A DNA stretch of 64,000 nucleotides from Woeseiaceae bacterium (GTDB lineage Bacteria > Pseudomonadota > Gammaproteobacteria > Steroidobacterales > Woeseiaceae), in assembly GCA_021773135.1 (NCBI GenBank), contig JAJFKP010000057.1, positions 1 through 64,000 of the forward strand. Reading direction: 5' to 3'. Below, piece by piece: positions 207-62,389 of this stretch; within the stretch, counting starts at the first letter, position 1; each line of letters begins with the position of its first letter. The notes beneath the pieces are model-generated. The model did not search any database. It had not been told where the DNA came from and saw only the letters and a program-made list of their open reading frames with translations. The position numbers and the translations under genes are program-made.

Positions 207-2108
207 CTAGTCGAAAACGTCGCCAGCGGAGTCGGCCCACAAATAGCCGTCTGCCCACAGATAACCGTCTGCCCAAAGGTAGCCATCAGCCCACAGATAT
301 CCGTCTGCCCACAGAGTGCCATCGCCCCACTGGGAACTATCGATCCATAGGAATCCAGCGGCAGAATTACCGCCATCTGCCCATTGATAGCCGTCTGCCC
401 AAATAGTACCTGCGGCCCACGACACGTCACCCCAGAGTTCGGCGGTGTCTTCGATCAGAAAGCCACCATTGACATCGTCACGAATCAACAACGGCGACAA
501 TGCATCATTTTGTACAACACCGGTCGCATTCATTGCCGCATCGATATCGAGCACACCGGCACCTGCATCTGTCGGACCCGAGGCGATCTTCCGGGCAGAG
601 CTCATGAGTCGCGCTTTAACAGTCGACGGTGACAAGGTTGGATCCTTGTCCAACATTAGCGCTGCAGTGGCAGCGACCATTGGCGTAGCCATGCTGGTAC
701 CAGACAGCTCGAGGTAGTCGTCGTTGCATCCGGACGCGCTGCATTGTACGACGCGCTCAGGAAGCGCCGTCCGAAGGTAGGCATTGTCCGGAATCGATGC
801 GACCAGCCTGTTGCCCGGAGCAATCAGGTCTGGCTTCAAAACGTGATCGGCAACGGTCGGTCCTCGTGATGAGAAGGAGGATACGTAGTCGTCACTGACA
901 TCCGCCGTGCCGCCGTCAGTAATTGAACCAACAGTGATAACTTTGCGTGAATTGCCTGGACTTTTCACAGTCATAGCGCCGTTGCTACCCAGGTTGCCGG
1001 CAGCGACGACGACAACGACACCCTGATCCCACAGTGCCTCAACTGTTAAGACCAAGGGGTCCGTCGTATTGGATTCAGAAATTCCCTTGCCTAATGAAAG
1101 ATTGACAACGCGCACATCAAAATGGGAACCGTACAGGACCAGCCAGTCAAGCGCTGCCATGATGTCGGACATGGTGCCGTTGCCATGCTGGTCGAGCACT
1201 TTCATGGAAAGAATTGAAGCCCCTTTCGCTGAACCTCGGTAGAGATCGCCAGATACTGAGCCCTGACCGGCGATGATACCTGCTACGTGGGTACCGTGGC
1301 CGTATGGATCATTGCGAACTTCATCGTTATAAACCGCGATCTCGCCATTGATGACGATCGGCACCGGGAAGTTGCCTTTGAGAAAGTTGTACTGGCGAAT
1401 GTTGGCGCTGAGATCCGCGTGCGCAGAGATACCCGAGTCGAGAATGGCTACCCCAACACCCGTGCCGCTATAGGCAGAGTTTCCGGATGCCGAAGACGGC
1501 AGGTTTGCGGTTTGACGAGACGATAATGAGGAGGCGCTGACTGGCTCGTCAATCGACAGCCGATCCACGTTTTGGTCAATTGCAAATTCTATCAACGCAC
1601 TGGCCGGCATACGAATAGCCTGCATTTCCATCGTCTTGAACGTTCGGACGATTTCACCACCAAGCTCTTCTATGCGACCTTCCTCGAACAATTCAGGATG
1701 TTCGTCGTAGCTAACGACCAAGTCGACAGGCTGGGGGCCACCGATTCGTGCCAGGTCCGCGACGGGGCCGCTCATTTTCGCGCTTGCAATGGCAAACGCT
1801 TCTTGTGGGTCCATGTTTTTTCGGGCATCACCCGCATTCACGGCTCTTTTCGCTCGCGAGTGGGTGCCGTTCGCAACCGATATTGGTGCCGCAGCGGTAA
1901 CAGAGGGCAAGTTTGCGTATTCGTTCGAATCGCCAGTTGATGCGTCGACTCTGGATGAGATAACTGTATCCGTCGCAGTGCTATTGGTGTCGGCCATCTG
2001 GAAATCGTTAAAGCCAGGCAATGCGCGATAGGCAGGACTAGTGCCAAGCGCGAGCGTCGCAACGCCAGCTAAAACAGCAAGAGATCTTATTGAGTTTGAT
2101 TTTTTCAT
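207..2108 (-). CDS. secreted subtilisin-like serine protease (S8) with WADGY-repeat tail
   Basis: A 633-residue extracellular or periplasmic endopeptidase. A signal peptide (about 1-25) is followed by a propeptide-like region (about 115-195) and an S8 catalytic domain (about 215-540). The triad is D224 (AILDSG), H271 (GHGTHVAG) and S472 (GTSMATP), with oxyanion Asn N372 (AAGN); all four are intact. The last 75 residues are unusual: about eleven W-x-D/G units ending in near-identical six-residue WADGYL repeats that run almost to the C-terminus. The tail is not a catalytic element. It might act in surface anchoring, secretion or binding, but this is inference. A CRP-type palindrome lies about 130 bp upstream of the start. 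The gene follows the propeller diguanylate cyclase on the same strand after a 178-bp gap, so it probably has its own promoter. Confidence 0.93.
   Translation of the reverse strand: MKKSNSIRSLAVLAGVATLALGTSPAYRALPGFNDFQMADTNSTATDTVISSRVDASTGDSNEYANLPSVTAAAPISVANGTHSRAKRAVNAGDARKNMDPQEAFAIASAKMSGPVADLARIGGPQPVDLVVSYDEHPELFEEGRIEELGGEIVRTFKTMEMQAIRMPASALIEFAIDQNVDRLSIDEPVSASSLSSRQTANLPSSASGNSAYSGTGVGVAILDSGISAHADLSANIRQYNFLKGNFPVPIVINGEIAVYNDEVRNDPYGHGTHVAGIIAGQGSVSGDLYRGSAKGASILSMKVLDQHGNGTMSDIMAALDWLVLYGSHFDVRVVNLSLGKGISESNTTDPLVLTVEALWDQGVVVVVAAGNLGSNGAMTVKSPGNSRKVITVGSITDGGTADVSDDYVSSFSSRGPTVADHVLKPDLIAPGNRLVASIPDNAYLRTALPERVVQCSASGCNDDYLELSGTSMATPMVAATAALMLDKDPTLSPSTVKARLMSSARKIASGPTDAGAGVLDIDAAMNATGVVQNDALSPLLIRDDVNGGFLIEDTAELWGDVSWAAGTIWADGYQWADGGNSAAGFLWIDSSQWGDGTLWADGYLWADGYLWADGYLWADGYLWADSAGDVFD
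228..434 (-). repeat. tandem 18-nt repeats encoding WADGYL units
   Basis: The 3' end of the protease gene is a run of 18-nt units (six codons, W-A-D-G-Y-L or variants). The units at 231-314 are nearly identical; those further 5' are diverged (WGDV, WAAG, WADGG, WIDSS, WGDG). Copy number may vary between strains through slippage or recombination. Confidence 0.85.
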
Positions 2109-2229
2109 GATGGATCTTGCCTTGATGGATAGTTCGAATTTGTGGCATACGCCAACAGCGCATCGTCGTTACATTTCAACAGAAACGCGATGGCGCGGGA
2201 CGTGCGCACTTGTGCCGGCGTGGGCAGGA

Positions 2230-2251
2230 AAATGTGACTCGGATCACATAA
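2230..2251. promoter_or_regulatory. CRP/Vfr/Clp-type operator upstream of the protease
   Basis: TGTGACTCGGATCACA at 2233-2248 is a perfect TGTGA-N6-TCACA palindrome, and its flanks (AA before, TAA after) also fit the classical 22-bp CRP site. It lies about 125-140 bp upstream of the protease start and 3' of the preceding cyclase gene. CRP, Vfr and the c-di-GMP-responsive Clp share this consensus, so the regulator cannot be told from the site. Confidence 0.7.
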
Positions 2252-2286
2252 CGGCTTCGTTAAATTGAACATGCGAAAGGCCTCCT

Positions 2287-5200
2287 TTACCCGATTGCCG
2301 ACAATGGCGACGTTGGATTGTCGGTTTCGGCGTCCGGTGCGTGAGCAATCAGATTTCCGGCGCGCTTCGCCCGGAACAGCATGGAAGTTGGTTCGATATC
2401 GTCGTGATCGAAATCGAAGCTGGTCGCGGCTTCAGAGGGGCTTAACATGCCGGCCCAGGCGTTACGACGCTTCTTCGCTTCATACATCAGGCTATCTGCC
2501 AGCGACATGATCTGATCGAGATCGGCATTGTCGGCCTGACCATGAAACAGCGGATAGGCCGAAAACCCTATTGAGCATGTTGTACGCACGACCTGTCCGT
2601 CACCCAGCTCGAAGCAGCGTCCCGCAATGCTGCTGCGTATGCGTTCGGCCAGCGCTTCTGCTTCGCCTGGTTTCGCCTGCTTGGCAATCACAACAAACTC
2701 GTCACCACCCCAGCGAATGACAAAGTCAGATTTGCGACAGGTGCCCAGCAGTACGTCGCGGACCTCAAGCAACATCTGGTCACCGGCGGCATGTCCATAC
2801 GTGTCATTGATAGGCTTAAAGTTATCGAGGTCGATCATCATAAAGACCAGATCGGAAGTCTTTCCCTGACTCAGCCCATCGCGTTCGTCCTCGAGTTTTC
2901 TCCGTACGACTTCAAGATCTTTGGACACTTCCTCGAATACGAAACGTCGGTTGCGAAGACCGGTGAGCGGGTCGCTCAGGCTTGATTCCTGAAGTGACTC
3001 ATTCAGTTCTTTAAGTTTTTCGTTGGTTTCCAGCAACTTCTCGGTACGTACCTGAACCTCTACTTCCAGTCGCTGGCTATATTCTTCCTCGCGTCGGATC
3101 TTGCGACGGTGGCCAAGCCACAAGGCAGCGACCAGCTGTGCGAACATCGCCAGATACCCGAGGTAGGCCCACCAGGTATCCCAGGGTGCGGGTGATACGG
3201 TCACAGGAATCGCCAGTCCGGTTTCATTCCACACACCGTCTGCATTGGCAGCTTTGACTCTCAGCAGATAGCTGCCGTCATTAAGGTCTGTGTAGGTAAC
3301 CGTGCGCCGGCTGCCAAGATCGATCCACTCCTTATCGAAACCTTCGAGCTTGTATTGGTAGCGATTCAATTCCGGAGTCGCGAAATCCAGCGCTGCGAAC
3401 TCGAAGCTGACGACGTCATCTTTGTAGCTGATCTCGATGCCTTCATCGGTGTCTACCGGTATGCCTTCCTTCGACGGGTCATTGGCGTTGTAGAAACCAG
3501 TAAGTGCAATCAGTGGCACGATGCTGTTGGCGCGCAGATCTTCGGGTCGGAATGCATTGAAACCATTGTGACCGCCGAAGAACAGTTCGCCGCTTGCACT
3601 TCGGTAGTGCGCGCCGAAATTGAATTCTTCTGATTGCAGTCCATCCGGACGATGCATGTTCTTAATGGCGCCGGTTTCGGGGTCATACTGACTGATGCCA
3701 TAGTTGGTGCTCAGCCAGAGTTTGCCGCTGTTGTCGAACTGGATGCCGTAGATCACGTCATTCGCGAGGCCGTCCACTTGCGAAACGTTGGTAAAGGTAA
3801 CTCGCTGCGGGTCATCGGTAGTGCCGATCACTCTGTCCAGTCCGCCGCCCTGGGTACCGATCCAGACCACGCCGTTCGTGTCGATGTTGATGGCGTAGAC
3901 GGTGTCGGCAGCGAGTGTGTTTGGATCCGTGGGATCGTGCCTGAAATGGTGAAATGTTTCGGTTGCCGGGTCGAACAGATTGAGTCCGCCAGCATCGGTG
4001 CCGACCCACATTTTCCCGCTTGGATCTTCTGCGAAACTGGTTACACGGTTACTACTCAACGCGTTCGCATTCGAGGAATCGGGAAAGTAGTGAGTGAATT
4101 GATCGGTGTTCGGGTCGAGACGGCTTATACCGCCGCCAAAGGTGCCAACCCAGATCTGGCCAATCCGGTCTTCATAGACGGCCATGATTCCGTTCGCGCT
4201 AATGCTGCGTGGATCGCTATCATCGTGTCTATAGACTTTGCTGACACCGGTCGTCGGATCGAAGCGATTCAAACCGCCGGTCATCGTGCCGACCCAGATG
4301 GTCCCGGCGCGATCCTGCAGCAAGCTCATGACGTTATCGTCACTCAGGCTGTCCGATCGGGACGGATCATTTTGATAGTGTGTAGTGACACCGGTCGAAC
4401 GATCGACCGCACTGAGTCCATCGCCAAAAGTGCCGACCCACAATGTTCCGGCAGCGTCCTCAGAGAATGACGTTACGTTAGGCTGCGACTCTGCATTCCT
4501 GGAGAGTTGGCGTGCATTCTCGAAACCATAAGACCAGGTGCGGGGGTTCCATTTGCTTAACCCGCGATTTCGTGTGCCGATCCAGAGGAGGCCACCGCGA
4601 TCCTGATAGATCTCAGTAACCGCGTTGCCGCCAAGACTGGTCGGGTCGGTGTCAACATTGCTGAAGCGTGTAAAAGTACCGTTGCTGCGGTTGACGAGAT
4701 TCAGCCCGCCGTAGGTGCCCACCCACATTCGGCCATCGTTGTCTTCAAAAATTGACGTGATCCGGTTGTTGGCGAGCGACGATTTGTCATCTGCATCGTG
4801 CTGGTAGCGCGTAAACGAGCGAGTTGTTTTATCAAAAAGATTCAGGCCGCCGCCGTAGGTGCCAATCCACATACGACCTGCGTCGTCTTCAAAGATTGCG
4901 CGCACCCTGTCGTCGCTTAATGAGCGGTCGTTGTCGGCGCTGTGAGTGTAAGATGTAAACTCGCCGGACTGTGTATCAAGTAGTGTTAGTCCGGCATTGC
5001 TGCCAATCCATAGTTTTCCGGGCGATCCCATGTGCAGCGCGTATATTTCATCCGGGTTTTTGGTCGGGTGTTTGTCATTGCCGAAATCGTAATGCGTGAA
5101 TTGACCGTCCCGTGGATTGAGTCGATCAAGTCCCTCACCGCGCGACGCCAGCCAGATGTAGCCGTTGTCGATCAGGAGCGAACGAACGACATTGCTCGAA

Positions 5201-56592: not shown

Positions 56593-57183
56593 TTATTGTT
56601 TCTGTAGCTTCTTGGCGAGAAGGTGATCCAGGCTCAGCTTGCCGGCACCTGTGAAAAACAGCGCAAGCAGCATGACAAAGTAGGTAATCGCCCATTCCAT
56701 GCCGCTGTTGGAGATCACGAAGTTGCCGGTCTCGGTCAGCCAGTCGTAGTTTCCATGTTCCCGCAGAAGGTCTTTGGCCTTGTCGAGGCGTTGCATCGCA
56801 CCGTCTACGTTTTCATTCGCAAACGGACTGGCTTTGTCTGCTACAGCCTGCCAGCCGTTTTCCGCGTGCACGGCAAATGCCGCGACCAGCATCGTTATCA
56901 TAAGGGGAATGGCGAACCAGCGAGTGGCGAGACCCAACAGCAAAGCCACGGCCCCCAAAACTTCAGTACCGGTTGCCAGGTAAGCCATAAGCGCTGGTGC
57001 GGGAAGCCCCAGGCCCCAGTCCGGGTTGCCAAACCAGCCGATCACGTTGTCAATTCCGCTTAGTTTGTTCATGCCCGCAACCCAGAACACGGGCACCAGA
57101 TAGAGTCTCAGCGCAAGCGGGCCGAGAAATTCTGCGACATTTGTCTTATTCAGCCAGCCGTGCATTTTTCTGAAGAGATCCAT
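56593..57183 (-). CDS. DoxX-family membrane protein
   Basis: 196 residues from the ATG opening MDLFRKMHGW, preceded by GGGGTG; a start 14 codons upstream lacks a ribosome-binding site. Four helices; motifs LGPLALRLYLVPVFWVAGMNKL and ATGTEVLGAVALLLGLATRW are typical of DoxX. A soluble insert (about 110-165) separates the last two helices. It sits 61 bp after the BufC/HvfC-like gene, matching HvfD/DoxX of DUF692 clusters, where it may handle quinone-linked oxidation. Confidence 0.88.
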   Translation of the reverse strand: MDLFRKMHGWLNKTNVAEFLGPLALRLYLVPVFWVAGMNKLSGIDNVIGWFGNPDWGLGLPAPALMAYLATGTEVLGAVALLLGLATRWFAIPLMITMLVAAFAVHAENGWQAVADKASPFANENVDGAMQRLDKAKDLLREHGNYDWLTETGNFVISNSGMEWAITYFVMLLALFFTGAGKLSLDHLLAKKLQKQ

Positions 57184-57244
57184 CGTCAACACCCCGGAGT
57201 TATCGTTGCTAGTCTTGGCAAACAAGACCGCAACTCAACCAGAA

Positions 57245-58006
57245 TTATTTCACGCCGAGAAGAATTTCTGCCGCAAGCATTTGTTGCATGGCTGATAAAC
57301 CGTGTTGAATGAGCGCGTCCGGATCAGGATAATGAATTTCTGCGGCGAGTTTTGTTAGCAACTCGCGGCCAGAATCACTATCGTTTGATTCGATCATTTC
57401 AAGCAGCCGTGCTGTGACAGGGTTTAATTCCATAAAGTCCATGTCATCGCTGGCCTTTCTGCATATAGCAAGAAAAGTTGGCTCGTCCGGCGCGGCATCG
57501 GGTTGATAGTCCGCGGATATCCGGTGTACTGGAAAATGATAGGCGAACGTCCACGCCAGTTTCGAGCGCACCGGTATGCCCGCCAGCAAATCGCCCGCAA
57601 CGTCTATGCCCGTCAGGTCGTTTGCTTCGTCGGATACCGAGAGCGCAAGCTCCACCCATTCGTAGTGGGCAAGTTCGATGAGAAAAGGAAAATCGTCGTC
57701 CTGAAGTTTGTACGTGTTCTCGAGGAAAGCGACGAACTCTTGTGGAACTTCAAGAAAATAAGGTGACTGCGCTTCGTGCTGCACCAGGAACTGGCGGACT
57801 AATGAGCGCCATTTCTTCTTCGTATGCAGTTTTTTCAAAACCGGGAATGTTTGGCTGAGCAGGCTCAGCAGGTTATTGAAAAACAGCTCGCGGTAGATCG
57901 CCATGCGCCGGTCTTCGGCTTCAATCGGCGCAGGGTTGTTATCCGGATCGCGGATGTGGCGTGCAAATGCATACTGGATCTCGCGAAAATCCGGCGATTC
58001 AGCCAT
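57245..58006 (-). CDS. DUF2063 protein (BufC/HvfC-like), partner of MNIO
   Basis: 253 residues from the ATG opening MAESPDFREIQ, which overlaps the end of the DUF692 gene by eight bases; an upstream extension lies wholly within that gene. The N-terminal DUF2063 domain has FARHIRDP, YRELFFNNLLSLLSQTFPVLKKL and YFLEVPQEFVAFLE. Proteins of this family bind the precursor peptide and work with the DUF692 oxidase, as BufC does with BufB or HvfC with HvfB. The old name 'putative DNA-binding domain' has little support. Confidence 0.9.
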   Translation of the reverse strand: MAESPDFREIQYAFARHIRDPDNNPAPIEAEDRRMAIYRELFFNNLLSLLSQTFPVLKKLHTKKKWRSLVRQFLVQHEAQSPYFLEVPQEFVAFLENTYKLQDDDFPFLIELAHYEWVELALSVSDEANDLTGIDVAGDLLAGIPVRSKLAWTFAYHFPVHRISADYQPDAAPDEPTFLAICRKASDDMDFMELNPVTARLLEMIESNDSDSGRELLTKLAAEIHYPDPDALIQHGLSAMQQMLAAEILLGVK

Positions 58007-58859
58007 GCGCCGACTCCCGCATGCTTTCTTCCGCTGCCTGCTGCATGCTTTTAATCTGCCGAACTTCGTCAAGGAGGTCTTCGACGGGCGGAAAATTGAA
58101 GTCACGCTCCAGCAAGGTGGGAACGCTGCCGAAATGAGCATATGCCTCTGCCAGCAACTGCCAGGATTGCTCGTCAACGGCCGCACCATGCGTGTCAATG
58201 CGGAGATCAGGCGCCTCGACGTAGTGCCCGGCGAGGTGGAAGTACTTGATACGTTCCCGCGGCATACTCAGCATGAATTCGCGAGCATCGTACTGGTGGT
58301 TAATACTATTGACGACAATATTATTGATGTCGAGAAGCAGGTCACAGTCGGCTTCCTCCAGCACGGCGAGCGTAAACTCGATCTCCGAGAGTGACGTATC
58401 TGTCGGCGTGTAGTAGGAAACATTTTCCACCGCCATTCTGCGCCCTAGTATGTCCTGTGCGCGACGGATGCGCTCAGCAACGTACTTGACGGCGTCGTCG
58501 GTGAACGGAATCGGCATGAGGTCGTAGAGCTGGCCGTTGTCGCCACAAAAACTCAGGTGTTCCGAATAAAATTCGATGCCGTGCTCCTCCATAAAAGCCC
58601 TGATGTCACGCAGCAGGGTTTCATTGAGTGCTGACGGCGCACCTATACTTAGGGAAAGTCCATGCAGTAAAAACGGATAACGTTCCGTAAAGAAGCGGAA
58701 TTTGTGGCCGAGTTTGCCGCCGACTCGAATCCAGTTTTCGGGCGCAACTTCCATGAAATCGATTTCAGGGGGCGGATCGGCCATCAACTTGTTCATCAGG
58801 CCTCGCCGCAGGCCAAGTCCTGCGCCGGATACCGGATATTGCTGTGCTTTGCCTGACAT
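57999..58859 (-). CDS. DUF692 multinuclear iron oxidase (MNIO; BufB/HvfB-like)
   Basis: 286-residue TIM-barrel enzyme of the family that modifies cysteine-containing precursor peptides (MbnB, BufB, HvfB). Conserved metal-ligand regions: LHGLSLSIG, YSEHLSFCG, LLDINNIVVNS, KYFHLAGHY, DTHGAAVDE and LLERDFNFP. The BufB pattern MPIPFTDDAVKYVAERI is also present. It starts a run MNIO-BufC-DoxX. The expected upstream precursor (DUF2282 bufferin) is absent: only 86 bp separate it from the DUF1841 gene. The substrate peptide must be encoded elsewhere or be of a new kind. Confidence 0.93.
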   Translation of the reverse strand: MSGKAQQYPVSGAGLGLRRGLMNKLMADPPPEIDFMEVAPENWIRVGGKLGHKFRFFTERYPFLLHGLSLSIGAPSALNETLLRDIRAFMEEHGIEFYSEHLSFCGDNGQLYDLMPIPFTDDAVKYVAERIRRAQDILGRRMAVENVSYYTPTDTSLSEIEFTLAVLEEADCDLLLDINNIVVNSINHQYDAREFMLSMPRERIKYFHLAGHYVEAPDLRIDTHGAAVDEQSWQLLAEAYAHFGSVPTLLERDFNFPPVEDLLDEVRQIKSMQQAAEESMRESAHG

Positions 58860-58945
58860 CGTTACTTTGCTCCAGATCTCTTTAATTAGACCGTGTTCAG
58901 AGGGCTATTATTACACCGTCCGGTGCGCAGGTCGTCCGCTACAGA

Positions 58946-59365
58946 CTATAGACGCCGCAGCCTCTGCAGGTATGCATCCTCGTCCGGCAGCGTATTCTTA
59001 CTTTGGGCTTCCCACAGCGTTTCAGCAAGGCATTCAAGTGCCAGGTGCTCCGCTGCGTGGTTATCATTCAGCCTTTTCCGCAGCTTGTCGAATATCGATC
59101 TGATGCCGGGTGGCCGATTGGTCGCAATCTGCTCACGAATGGCAAGATGCAGCCCCATGTGCAGAAACGGATTTGTCTGGCCAGACTCAGGGGAGAAGGA
59201 TTTGTCGATACTGTCTGTCGACAGCATGGAATGGTACTCGGGGTGTTCATTAACAACGCTTACGATCTGCGCTTCCAGTGGCGACAGCATTTCACCGGCT
59301 GTCGATTTTGTCCAGGCATCAATATACATTTGCCGCAGCTCGTTTCGATCCTGGCCGAAAATCAT
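58946..59365 (-). CDS. DUF1841 family protein
   Basis: 139 residues; MIFGQDRNELRQMYIDAWTK, NPFLHMGLHLAIREQI and HALAECLAETLWEAQ-like C-terminus identify DUF1841, a small cytosolic family of unknown function found in beta- and gammaproteobacteria, often beside nth. Its ATG overlaps the nth stop by four bases, so it is translated with nth. Confidence 0.92.
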   Translation of the reverse strand: MIFGQDRNELRQMYIDAWTKSTAGEMLSPLEAQIVSVVNEHPEYHSMLSTDSIDKSFSPESGQTNPFLHMGLHLAIREQIATNRPPGIRSIFDKLRKRLNDNHAAEHLALECLAETLWEAQSKNTLPDEDAYLQRLRRL

Positions 59366-60698: not shown

Positions 60699-61337
60699 TC
60701 ATATCTCTTCCGTTCGCTCAAAGACAGTCGCGCGATTGTCTGCGAAATATAGTAGCGTTTCTTTCACGGCATTGATGACCGCTCGCGGCGTGATAGACGC
60801 ACCCGTCAGCTGATCGAATTCGCCGCCGTCTCGTTTGATTGCCCAGGCCGCGGCAGGGGGCTCTCCCAGCGACTTGCCGACAAACTGCAATATCCAATCC
60901 GACTTGGACGCTTCGATCAGGTCGCCCAGGCCAGGGGTCTCGCGGTGTTTGAGGACGCGGACACCCGTAACCGTGCCATCTGCATGAATGCCGACCAACA
61001 ACTCTATTGGCCCGGAAAAGCCGTCCCGTGCGCTGACGACAAACAGGGCCGCGATCGGTGTGTCGTCGGCATACACTCGGTAAACAGTGACATCATCATT
61101 GCCGGGCAGGTCATGCGGCGCCGGAATGGTTTTGGTCGATTCGGAGAGTGTGCCATCGTAGCTGATGCCGGCCAGAACCGGCTGCAGGCTTTGTTCGAGA
61201 AACGCCTGCTGGTTAGCGGCAATGCGCGGTGCCGTTGTACTGTGCGTAAGCGCGACCAGCGCCGTGCAAACGGCGGCGAGGCCGCCCAGTATCAAACCAC
61301 TGGTCCAGACGGACACATTTTGCTCAGCCTGCATCAT
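60699..61337 (-). CDS. rnfG: Rnf/Rsx electron transport complex subunit G
   Basis: 212-residue subunit with one N-terminal membrane helix and a periplasmic FMN-binding domain. The flavinylation motif is TGASITPRAV, close to the SGATxT consensus, with the FMN attached to the last threonine by ApbE. LKHRETPGLGDLIE is the other family hallmark. It overlaps the end of rnfD by four bases. Confidence 0.95.
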   Translation of the reverse strand: MMQAEQNVSVWTSGLILGGLAAVCTALVALTHSTTAPRIAANQQAFLEQSLQPVLAGISYDGTLSESTKTIPAPHDLPGNDDVTVYRVYADDTPIAALFVVSARDGFSGPIELLVGIHADGTVTGVRVLKHRETPGLGDLIEASKSDWILQFVGKSLGEPPAAAWAIKRDGGEFDQLTGASITPRAVINAVKETLLYFADNRATVFERTEEI

Positions 61338-62389
61338 CTGTTCCTGCGCTGTCGCACGGGGTGGCCGACAATGTGCGGTTTGGTCAGGTAGTCAATGGCG
61401 GGAACCGCCATATTCATTAACAGCACGGCGAAAGCGACGCCATCCGCGTAGCTGCCCCACTCGCGTATCGCATAGATCAGGAAACCAATGCCTAATCCAT
61501 AAACCAGCCGTCCCCTGTCGCTCGTAGCCGCCGATACCGGATCGGTGGCGATGAAAAAGGCGCAGAGAATAGCGCCCCCGCTGAACAGGTGGAAGCCGGG
61601 ACTGGGGCTGATGCTTGGAACGAGGAAATACATGAGGCTCGATGGTATGAGCAAGCCGGCAAGCACACCCAGCGGGATCTGCCAGCGAATAATTTTCTTG
61701 ACCAGGAGCCACGCGCCACCGATCGCCGTGAAGTTGCCTATCCATTCCCATCCGCGACCGCCGAAGTCACCCATCATGGGATAGACACGCAGCTCGTCGA
61801 ATGTTTGCATATTGTTCAGGCCTGCCTTCACCACATCCAGCGGAGTAGCCCGACTGACAGCATCGAATGACAGCGACTCAGGAAATGACCCGGTAATAGT
61901 AAACCACGCAGTTTCTGCAATGGTCAGAAACCGGTAGTCGAGATCTCCCATGCGCGGCGCAGTCCACAGGTTCATGTCCATCGGGAAAGCGACCAGCGCC
62001 ACAACGTAGCCAACCATGGCCGGGTTGAACATGTTATATCCAAGCCCGCCATAGAGGTGTTTGGCGACAACCACCGCAAACAGTGCAGCGGTTGCGGTTA
62101 CCCACCACGGAGTGAGTGCCGGCATTGCGAAAGCAAGCAACGTGGCCGTGACCAGCGCACTGTAGTCTGTAATGGTTGGCTCAACCGGTCTGTTGCGCAG
62201 CCTGAGCATGAAAGCTTCGCCCGCAATACAGAAAGCACTTGCAACAATCAGGTTGAAAATGAATCCGGGACCGAAATACCAGACATAGGCAATGGCTGCT
62301 GGAATCAGGGCGTAAAGTACGTGCCGCATTACGGACGCCACGTCGGTGGCCGGTGCTTTGAAAGGGGCAACCCGACGCTCGAATTCCAT
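61334..62389 (-). CDS. rnfD: Rnf/Rsx electron transport complex subunit D
   Basis: 351-residue membrane subunit of about nine helices. The covalent FMN site is in SRATPLDVV, and GGLGYNMFNPAMVGYVV and FFIATDPVSAATSDRGRL are family signatures. It forms the membrane ion-translocating core. It overlaps the rnfC stop by one base. Confidence 0.95.
   Translation of the reverse strand: MEFERRVAPFKAPATDVASVMRHVLYALIPAAIAYVWYFGPGFIFNLIVASAFCIAGEAFMLRLRNRPVEPTITDYSALVTATLLAFAMPALTPWWVTATAALFAVVVAKHLYGGLGYNMFNPAMVGYVVALVAFPMDMNLWTAPRMGDLDYRFLTIAETAWFTITGSFPESLSFDAVSRATPLDVVKAGLNNMQTFDELRVYPMMGDFGGRGWEWIGNFTAIGGAWLLVKKIIRWQIPLGVLAGLLIPSSLMYFLVPSISPSPGFHLFSGGAILCAFFIATDPVSAATSDRGRLVYGLGIGFLIYAIREWGSYADGVAFAVLLMNMAVPAIDYLTKPHIVGHPVRQRRNR

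Follow-up and report, generated by a model that had tools for sequence, protein, structure and literature searches.

A likely thiooxazole metallophore pathway split between two loci under a probable ECF sigma regulon of its own in a Woeseiaceae bacterium

The hvfB, hvfC and hvfX genes found in a 64-kb stretch of DNA from a Woeseiaceae bacterium (the window, i.e., the whole stretch analyzed) likely belong to a thiooxazole metallophore pathway whose genes lie in two loci and are linked again by an ECF sigma regulon of the pathway's own. The window would carry the enzyme half of a pathway of the oxazolin/captophorin type, and its precursor gene, hvfA, would be the one on contig C56 of the same genome; the enzyme genes seem to have no precursor because the precursor gene lies elsewhere in the genome. 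In the mechanism that we propose, an ECF sigma factor would read TAATAA-N15-GGTC before its own operon and before hvfB, so that precursor and enzymes would be made together despite the distance. HvfC and HvfB would turn the Cys residues in the EG[S/K]CG repeats of HvfA into 5-thiooxazoles before Sec export, and the product would be a periplasmic peptide that buffers copper or a soft metal. We infer both the modification of the C56 HvfA in trans by the HvfBC of the window and the formation of 5-thiooxazoles on EGSCG; the pathway would probably serve in copper or thiol stress.

Enzyme Locus in the Window

The following features of the window, all on the minus strand, make up the enzyme locus and its immediate surroundings:

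57999-58859, minus strand: hvfB, MNIO (DUF692) peptide maturase of 286 aa (NF003818, PF05114, PDB 3bww)
57245-58003, minus strand: hvfC, RRE-containing HvfB partner with DUF2063 and NGO1945_C (NF050145, PF09836, PF22106, PDB 3dee)
56593-57183, minus strand: hvfX, DoxX-type membrane protein (NF050144, PF07681)
58946-59365, minus strand: DUF1841 gene, neighbor upstream of hvfB (PF08897, 182.5 bits)
58889-58913, minus strand: ECF-type promoter-like box TAATAW-N15-GGTC, with 29 bp between its end and the ATG of hvfB

The hvfC and hvfB genes overlap by 5 bp. For hvfX an ATG was picked as the start; the open reading frame list begins at a TTG at 57225. HvfB passed the NCBIfam profile NF003818 (411.6 bits, cut-off 360), failed the BufB profile NF050167 (249.1 bits, cut-off 310) and matched PF05114 with 328 bits in Pfam. 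HvfC passed NF050145 (305 bits, cut-off 142) and contains PF09836 and PF22106, while HvfX passed NF050144 (233.7 bits, cut-off 80) and contains PF07681. The locus has neither a MNIO above the BufB cut-off nor a DUF2282/BufA2 precursor, the two marks of a bufferin locus that were looked for. By these profiles the window enzymes are of the Hvf (oxazolin) type, and the name "BufC" given to the partner in an earlier, sequence-only reading of this DNA was wrong, since this protein is HvfC. The same reading had overlooked that the DoxX gene is hvfX and that a conserved promoter-like box lies in the 86-bp gap upstream of hvfB.

The top PDB sequence match of HvfB was 3bww (E = 1.7e-71), in two stretches spanning residues 11-275. 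The segments HGLSLS, EHLSF, EN-SYY, LD-NN, H-AGH, DTHG and LLERDFNFPP were seen in the alignment or the query, and presumably hold the iron ligands. The top match of HvfC was 3dee (E = 1.9e-8). The DUF1841 gene probably stands outside the pathway; it was located no more than 400 bp upstream of hvfB in all 64 close named loci with enough sequence (from the best 80 of 549 matches). Upstream of it lie genes that we take to be nth and rnf; wherever they appear, nth, rnfE, hemB, aroE, gorA, tag and "glutamate-synthase-like" are provisional names.

A MNIO-partner-DoxX gene group without an adjoining precursor, as the earlier reading had described it, was confirmed by the open reading frame list and the profiles. 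Its statement that the gap (58860-58945) holds no precursor gene was also borne out, the gap being too small for a 30-aa open reading frame. Likewise, tblastn with the BufA of the same genome (E 0.01) detected no DUF2282-like sequence in the window, and two positive controls matched. Window open reading frames between 30 and 160 aa were also scanned crudely for a signal-like start combined with three or more Cys, which returned one candidate, 61165-61527 (plus strand). It is antisense to two long minus-strand open reading frames, which we take to be rnf genes, and is not credible as a precursor. In total, no overlooked precursor was found in the 86-bp gap or the rest of the window.

Precursor and Sigma Factor Genes on Contig C56

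The source genome comprises 4.55 Mb in 64 contigs. Searching it for GRNGGNAARTGYGSN revealed a cluster of motifs on contig C56, in a gene whose 196-aa product starts with a signal peptide, as judged by eye, and contains 15 EG[S/K]CG motifs (12 with Ser, 3 with Lys). Most of the motifs stand in single 10-residue units and there are two tandem pairs; at the DNA level, a 30-bp unit is present in 11 repeats. The protein passed the HvfA domain model NF050137 (34.7, cut-off 19.5), failed the strict equivalog NF050188 (22.5, cut-off 95) and had no Pfam match, and is therefore a family member and not a strict equivalog. Nine further loci met in the search (on C6, C10, C20, C23, C26, C31, C51 and C63, and a second one on C56) were not precursor-like; according to a script, three of them contain an open reading frame with a single GKC motif and six contain none.

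The sequence-only reading had left a choice between a precursor encoded elsewhere and a new, non-canonical peptide. The former holds in the form of the HvfA-family gene on C56, whose product belongs to a recognized family (NF050137) and has a variant motif. Besides this single HvfA-family gene, the genome contains a BufA gene on C35, which is part of a separate bufferin operon:

L001 (G000:C35:62242-66033), 717-3222, minus strand: bufferin operon BufA-DoxX-BufB-DUF2063

Its BufB scored 374 bits over the cut-off of 310, while BufA passed PF10048 (87.3 over 22.4) and remained below the cut-off of NF050166 (29.9, cut-off 60). The source genome contains two MNIO genes, hvfB in the window and this BufB gene.

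On C56 an ECF sigma gene, a DUF3379 gene and hvfA follow each other in this order, with a divergent hemB and with tag downstream. The sigma factor passed TIGR02937 (74.1 over 42.9) and NF009170 (203.1 over 197). The DUF3379 protein passed PF11859 (104.9 over 33.2), has a membrane helix by eye and scored 15.4 against the NCBIfam antisigma model NF052375, whose cut-off is 100. HX3CX2C, the form of zinc/thiol anti-sigma factors, was found in 27 of 31 DUF3379 tblastn matches. With this motif and the neighboring sigma gene, DUF3379 may be an anti-sigma-like, zinc-binding protein.

Of the 68 genomes carrying both, 67 have the DUF3379 gene no more than 1.6 kb away from hvfA; four genomes contained DUF3379 without the HvfA pattern and 12 the pattern without DUF3379. 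It should be mentioned that several genomes have a second HvfA-like gene apart from ECF-DUF3379 (L116, L124, L241, L246, L251). In one family (f12: L243, L254, L080-L083) the HvfA at the aroE/tag site has shrunk to a few EGSCG motifs after Asp-rich stretches, and in two of these loci, L243 and L254, no hemB, ECF or DUF3379 matches were present around it.

Distribution of the Two Loci

In the source genome, the hvfA and hvfB loci lie on separate contigs, which by the lengths of these contigs puts them at least about 57 kb apart. To describe their distribution, we surveyed 119 genomes of relatives, 73 of them from the same family and with the source genome included. HvfB scored over the cut-off in 81 of them and the pattern EGxCGEGxCG was found in 80; the two were present together in 77 genomes, hvfB alone in four (G004, G009, G010, G089), the pattern alone in three and neither in 35 (Fisher p = 4e-22, relatedness not corrected). 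Among the three genomes with the pattern only, hvfB is in two pieces in G030 and partial in G069; the third is G051. The reversed pattern, used as a control, was found in none of the 119 genomes.

All 77 surveyed genomes of the order with both genes were inspected, and hvfA was scored as present near hvfB when two or more EGxCG codon motifs were clustered there. In 75 of them the hvfB region contained no hvfA, the exceptions being G086 and G112; at least 600 bp before hvfB were covered in every genome except G052 (105 bp). Both genes occur together in 12 families of the order, and 10 of these show the split, mostly with like neighbors. In G017, a single contig of 4,059,891 bp, the two genes are located at 2,477,103 and 104,902, i.e., 1.7 or 2.4 Mb apart if the molecule is circular, and in G020 the two genes are found at 814,288 and 2,909,713 of a single 3.6-Mb contig. 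The typical neighborhoods across the order are rnfE-nth-DUF1841-hvfB-hvfC-hvfX and gorA-aroE-hemB / ECF-DUF3379-hvfA-tag, the labels rnfE, nth, gorA, aroE, hemB and tag being provisional as above; some families gave no DUF1841, ECF, DUF3379 or hemB matches.

Named loci were collected with the window HvfB as query, the best 80 of 549 matches being taken. In the flanking sequence covered, no HvfA-type gene was found at the 69 closest of these 80, which share 68-86% identity and in many cases bear the title Woeseia or Woeseiaceae; among the 11 more distant ones HvfA was found in six, including three Porticoccus and Thioalkalivibrio denitrificans, and was absent from five. A bufferin gene adjoining hvfB in close relatives, which the earlier reading had named as a sign of simple loss or relocation, was absent: tblastn with BufA matched none of these 80 named loci, and none of 80 hvfB regions of the surveyed genomes. 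Loss or relocation in the source genome alone is refuted by the split seen in most of the order. The locus of T. denitrificans (L229) has an intermediate arrangement, with hvfA-hvfX, an opposite-strand DUF1841 and hvfB-hvfC within ~3.3 kb.

A sample of 94 genomes across the class gave a different picture. Outside the order, HvfB and the pattern were found together in 24 genomes besides the source, and in 22 of these they lie no more than 10 kb apart; the unlinked cases are G120 and G179, and in G165 another MNIO is nearer to HvfA. Six genomes of the sample had HvfB over the cut-off without the pattern (G146, G151, G180, G183, G200, G208). The difference in linkage between order and class has p = 8e-18, relatedness not corrected. 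Judged by this distribution, the split is old.

It should also be noted that 12 small genomes of the same family (1.1-2.0 Mb, some incomplete) have no hvfB, HvfA pattern or DUF3379 (G015, G025, G029, G031, G033, G035, G037, G039, G041, G048, G056, G064), as expected from joint loss.

Promoter-Like Box and Candidate Regulon

The box at 58913-58889 is the sole TAATAW-N15-GGTC match in the 64-kb window; its site is crossed by an opposite-strand open reading frame of 133 aa. Before the ECF gene, most relatives have GTAATAA, 15 bases and GGTC. A box was present before ECF in 28 of 29 loci, and in most genomes, as on C56, it starts 32 bp before the sigma gene. On C56 it ends 7 bp from the assumed ATG, which would make the transcript leaderless or place the start codon further in.

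Among the close named loci (from the best 80 of 549 matches), 65 have enough upstream sequence; in 64 of them the box stands no more than 150 bp before hvfB, and it was found in none of 334 upstream regions of six neighboring genes. These loci contain 66 box matches in 1.47 million strand-bases, and mononucleotide shuffles gave an expectation of 0.01 of 65 loci with a box before hvfB. In the lone exception, L159, one base of GGTC is changed. Similarly, 51 of the 52 hvfB regions surveyed in the same family have the box, and the exception, G004, has the same upstream sequence as L159.

The box also follows the distribution of DUF3379. In 79 hvfB regions (the masked G100 being excluded) it was found in 60 of 66 with DUF3379 in the genome and in one of 13 without, G090 (p = 4e-9, relatedness not corrected). 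Five of the six DUF3379 genomes in which it is inexact or absent are G117 (variant), G087 (one mismatch) and G082, G085 and G109 (none). The variant of G117, AAATAA, is common to its ECF and hvfB promoters. Taking these data together, we infer that the box is a putative promoter read by the C56 ECF sigma factor.

The box is not enriched across the source genome (13 matches versus 10 for the reversed control). Six of the 13 matches have a plausible downstream gene, including hvfB and the ECF sigma gene; the other seven lie in or opposite open reading frames of more than 120 aa and were treated as chance. The remaining four box-preceded genes are:

C52, L346:1501-2007: second DoxX gene
C1, L337:1501-2802: OsmC-hydrolase fusion
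C64, L349:1501-1752: short exported remnant, similar to the signal peptide of the redoxin in G008 and G001
C16, L339:272-1525: 374-aa exported protein with no Pfam family

In seven relatives, the box with a leading G gave 45 matches versus 12 for its reverse. All seven have it before ECF, before hvfB and before at least one redoxin-like gene. In total nine redoxin-like genes (seven called by Pfam scan, two by similarity) follow a box in these genomes; judged by eye, their products have a signal peptide or are anchored in the membrane. Behind further boxes of the relatives lie genes for DoxX, YHS, DUF1223, DUF547 and DUF6152 proteins, along with several that match no family. Of the 45 sites, 41 were put through a crude frame test. 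It called 15 of them coding, some wrongly, since one ECF site, one hvfB site and three redoxin sites were included, so that single members beyond the recurrent ones are weak. In G020 (L391, G020:C1:208000-218000) the box lies 57 bp before a BufA2 gene (128 bits, cut-off 60), which sits upstream of a BufB-type MNIO, and it is possible that bufferin and HvfA are tied to one regulon there.

Alternative Explanations

The reading of the box could be mistaken, and this is where we see the most room for error, improbable as it is: the sequence before hvfB may be another conserved element, the two loci being co-regulated otherwise or not at all. The box is missing in six of 66 DUF3379 genomes, shows no enrichment across the whole source genome and lies very near the assumed ECF start codon. 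Against this, it has a two-box form and in most genomes starts 32 bp ahead of the ECF gene, 12 of the 13 genomes that lack DUF3379 also lack it before hvfB, and the G117 variant matches at both genes. The common box also bears on a still less probable alternative, in which the window HvfBC act on another, unrecognized peptide and the C56 HvfA stays unmodified or is served by the BufBC of C35. The physical distance between the loci and the presence of a second MNIO, the BufB on C35, speak for it, as does the statement in a passage of PMC12452194 that precursors unlinked to MNIO genes may use a distant MNIO or stay unmodified. However, hvfA and hvfB occur together in 77 of the 84 genomes with either, both loci have the box, HvfA lies close to a HvfB-type MNIO in 22 of 24 genomes outside the order, and the C35 operon has its own BufA.

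The same linkage outside the order, where an adjoining hvfA is the rule, would speak for a decayed locus, in which a precursor beside hvfB was lost and the enzymes are relics. This is hardly credible: hvfB, hvfC and hvfX are intact here and the split recurs in 10 of 12 families, mostly with the same neighbors, which refutes decay for the order as a whole. We therefore retain the two-locus pathway under a common sigma factor as the preferred explanation.

Novelty and Meaning of the Split

A known enzyme kit and precursor family occur here in a new arrangement, the two halves of which are very likely re-joined by a dedicated ECF sigma regulon. Among the literature matches listed, subscription papers aside, we found no split HvfA pathway, no function of DUF3379 and nothing pairing "ECF sigma factor" with MNIO. 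Specifically, none of these matches described a split fixed across most families of an order, the DUF3379/ECF linkage or the common box. An unlinked precursor alone is not new, since such precursors are already noted in part of PMC12452194.

A broader model is plausible, though falling slightly short of probable: the ECF sigma/DUF3379 switch would sense copper or thiol damage in the envelope and control, as one regulon, HvfA, HvfBCX, redoxins, DoxX and sometimes bufferin. If so, DUF3379 would be the sensor of an entire metallophore program, it may receive feedback from HvfA through the modification state or metal loading of this peptide, and most of a gammaproteobacterial order would have given up the usual RiPP cluster in one operon for a split pathway stitched together by a sigma factor.

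RiPP pathways are mostly found by searching beside the enzyme. Genome mining based on neighborhood would read the split pathway as "enzyme without substrate", and most of the order, including Woeseiaceae, would score as substrate-less though precursor, enzymes and a common box are present. The present analysis gives a candidate substrate, regulator and promoter and proposes a role for DUF3379, which suggests that other "precursor-less" MNIO loci may yield by following the regulator.

Comparison With Known Systems

The closest systems are oxazolin (hvfABCX, Haemophilus influenzae) and fontiphorin (fonABC), captophorins with the same HvfB/HvfC/HvfX enzyme families and the same precursor family, with a signal peptide and repeated EGxCG. 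According to parts of PMC13419390 and PMC13097082, their Cys residues are converted into 5-thiooxazoles, copper binding is reported, HvfC is required for activity and the precursor is encoded in the same operon or cluster. Here, in contrast, hvfA occupies a separate locus behind ECF sigma and DUF3379 genes, and 12 of its 15 motifs are EGSCG.

In 20 HvfA proteins of the same family, the third motif position is Ser in 133 of 186 motifs and Lys in 40; Lys is present in 108 of 127 motifs in other families of the order (16 proteins) and in 96 of 103 in linked homologues elsewhere (13 proteins, from 13 of the 22 linked genomes). By sequence, the HvfA found here is a variant of the known family, mostly with EGSCG for EGKCG. 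In the sections of PMC13097082 on motif variants, FonBC accepts Ala, Arg and Thr at position 3 and is severely impaired by Phe and Glu, and it modified one of two shortened substrates, that with two repeats, but not the other; Ser at this position is not among the FonBC substrates of its section 12.

Bufferins (BufA/BufB/BufC) share with this system a signal-peptide RiPP metallophore and a MNIO with a DUF2063 partner, often with DoxX, and some Buf1 clusters include a sigma gene and the anti-sigma gene NrsF (PMC12452194, in part). They differ in that the window MNIO scores under the cut-off for BufB, no Pfam family matches HvfA, the neighbor of the sigma gene is DUF3379, and sigma gene and precursor are distant from the enzymes. 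The mmrABC system of Microbulbifer, which yields bulbicupramide, likewise combines an EGKCG precursor with MNIO and DUF2063 proteins but forms one cluster, unlike the two loci here. Passages of PMC12538549 report that each Cys loses 4 H upon co-expression in E. coli, describe bulbicupramide as a Cu(I)-binding chalkophore-like RiPP and state that MmrA-C went undetected in Microbulbifer with added copper.

By analogy with these systems, metal or copper handling remains the expected role on circumstantial grounds. The occurrence of Woeseia on a copper surface fits copper handling and does not prove it: in a seawater biofilm on copper, part of PMC6917582 places Woeseia, at ~3%, among the two most abundant genera and singles out rpoE-type sigma genes among the stress genes.
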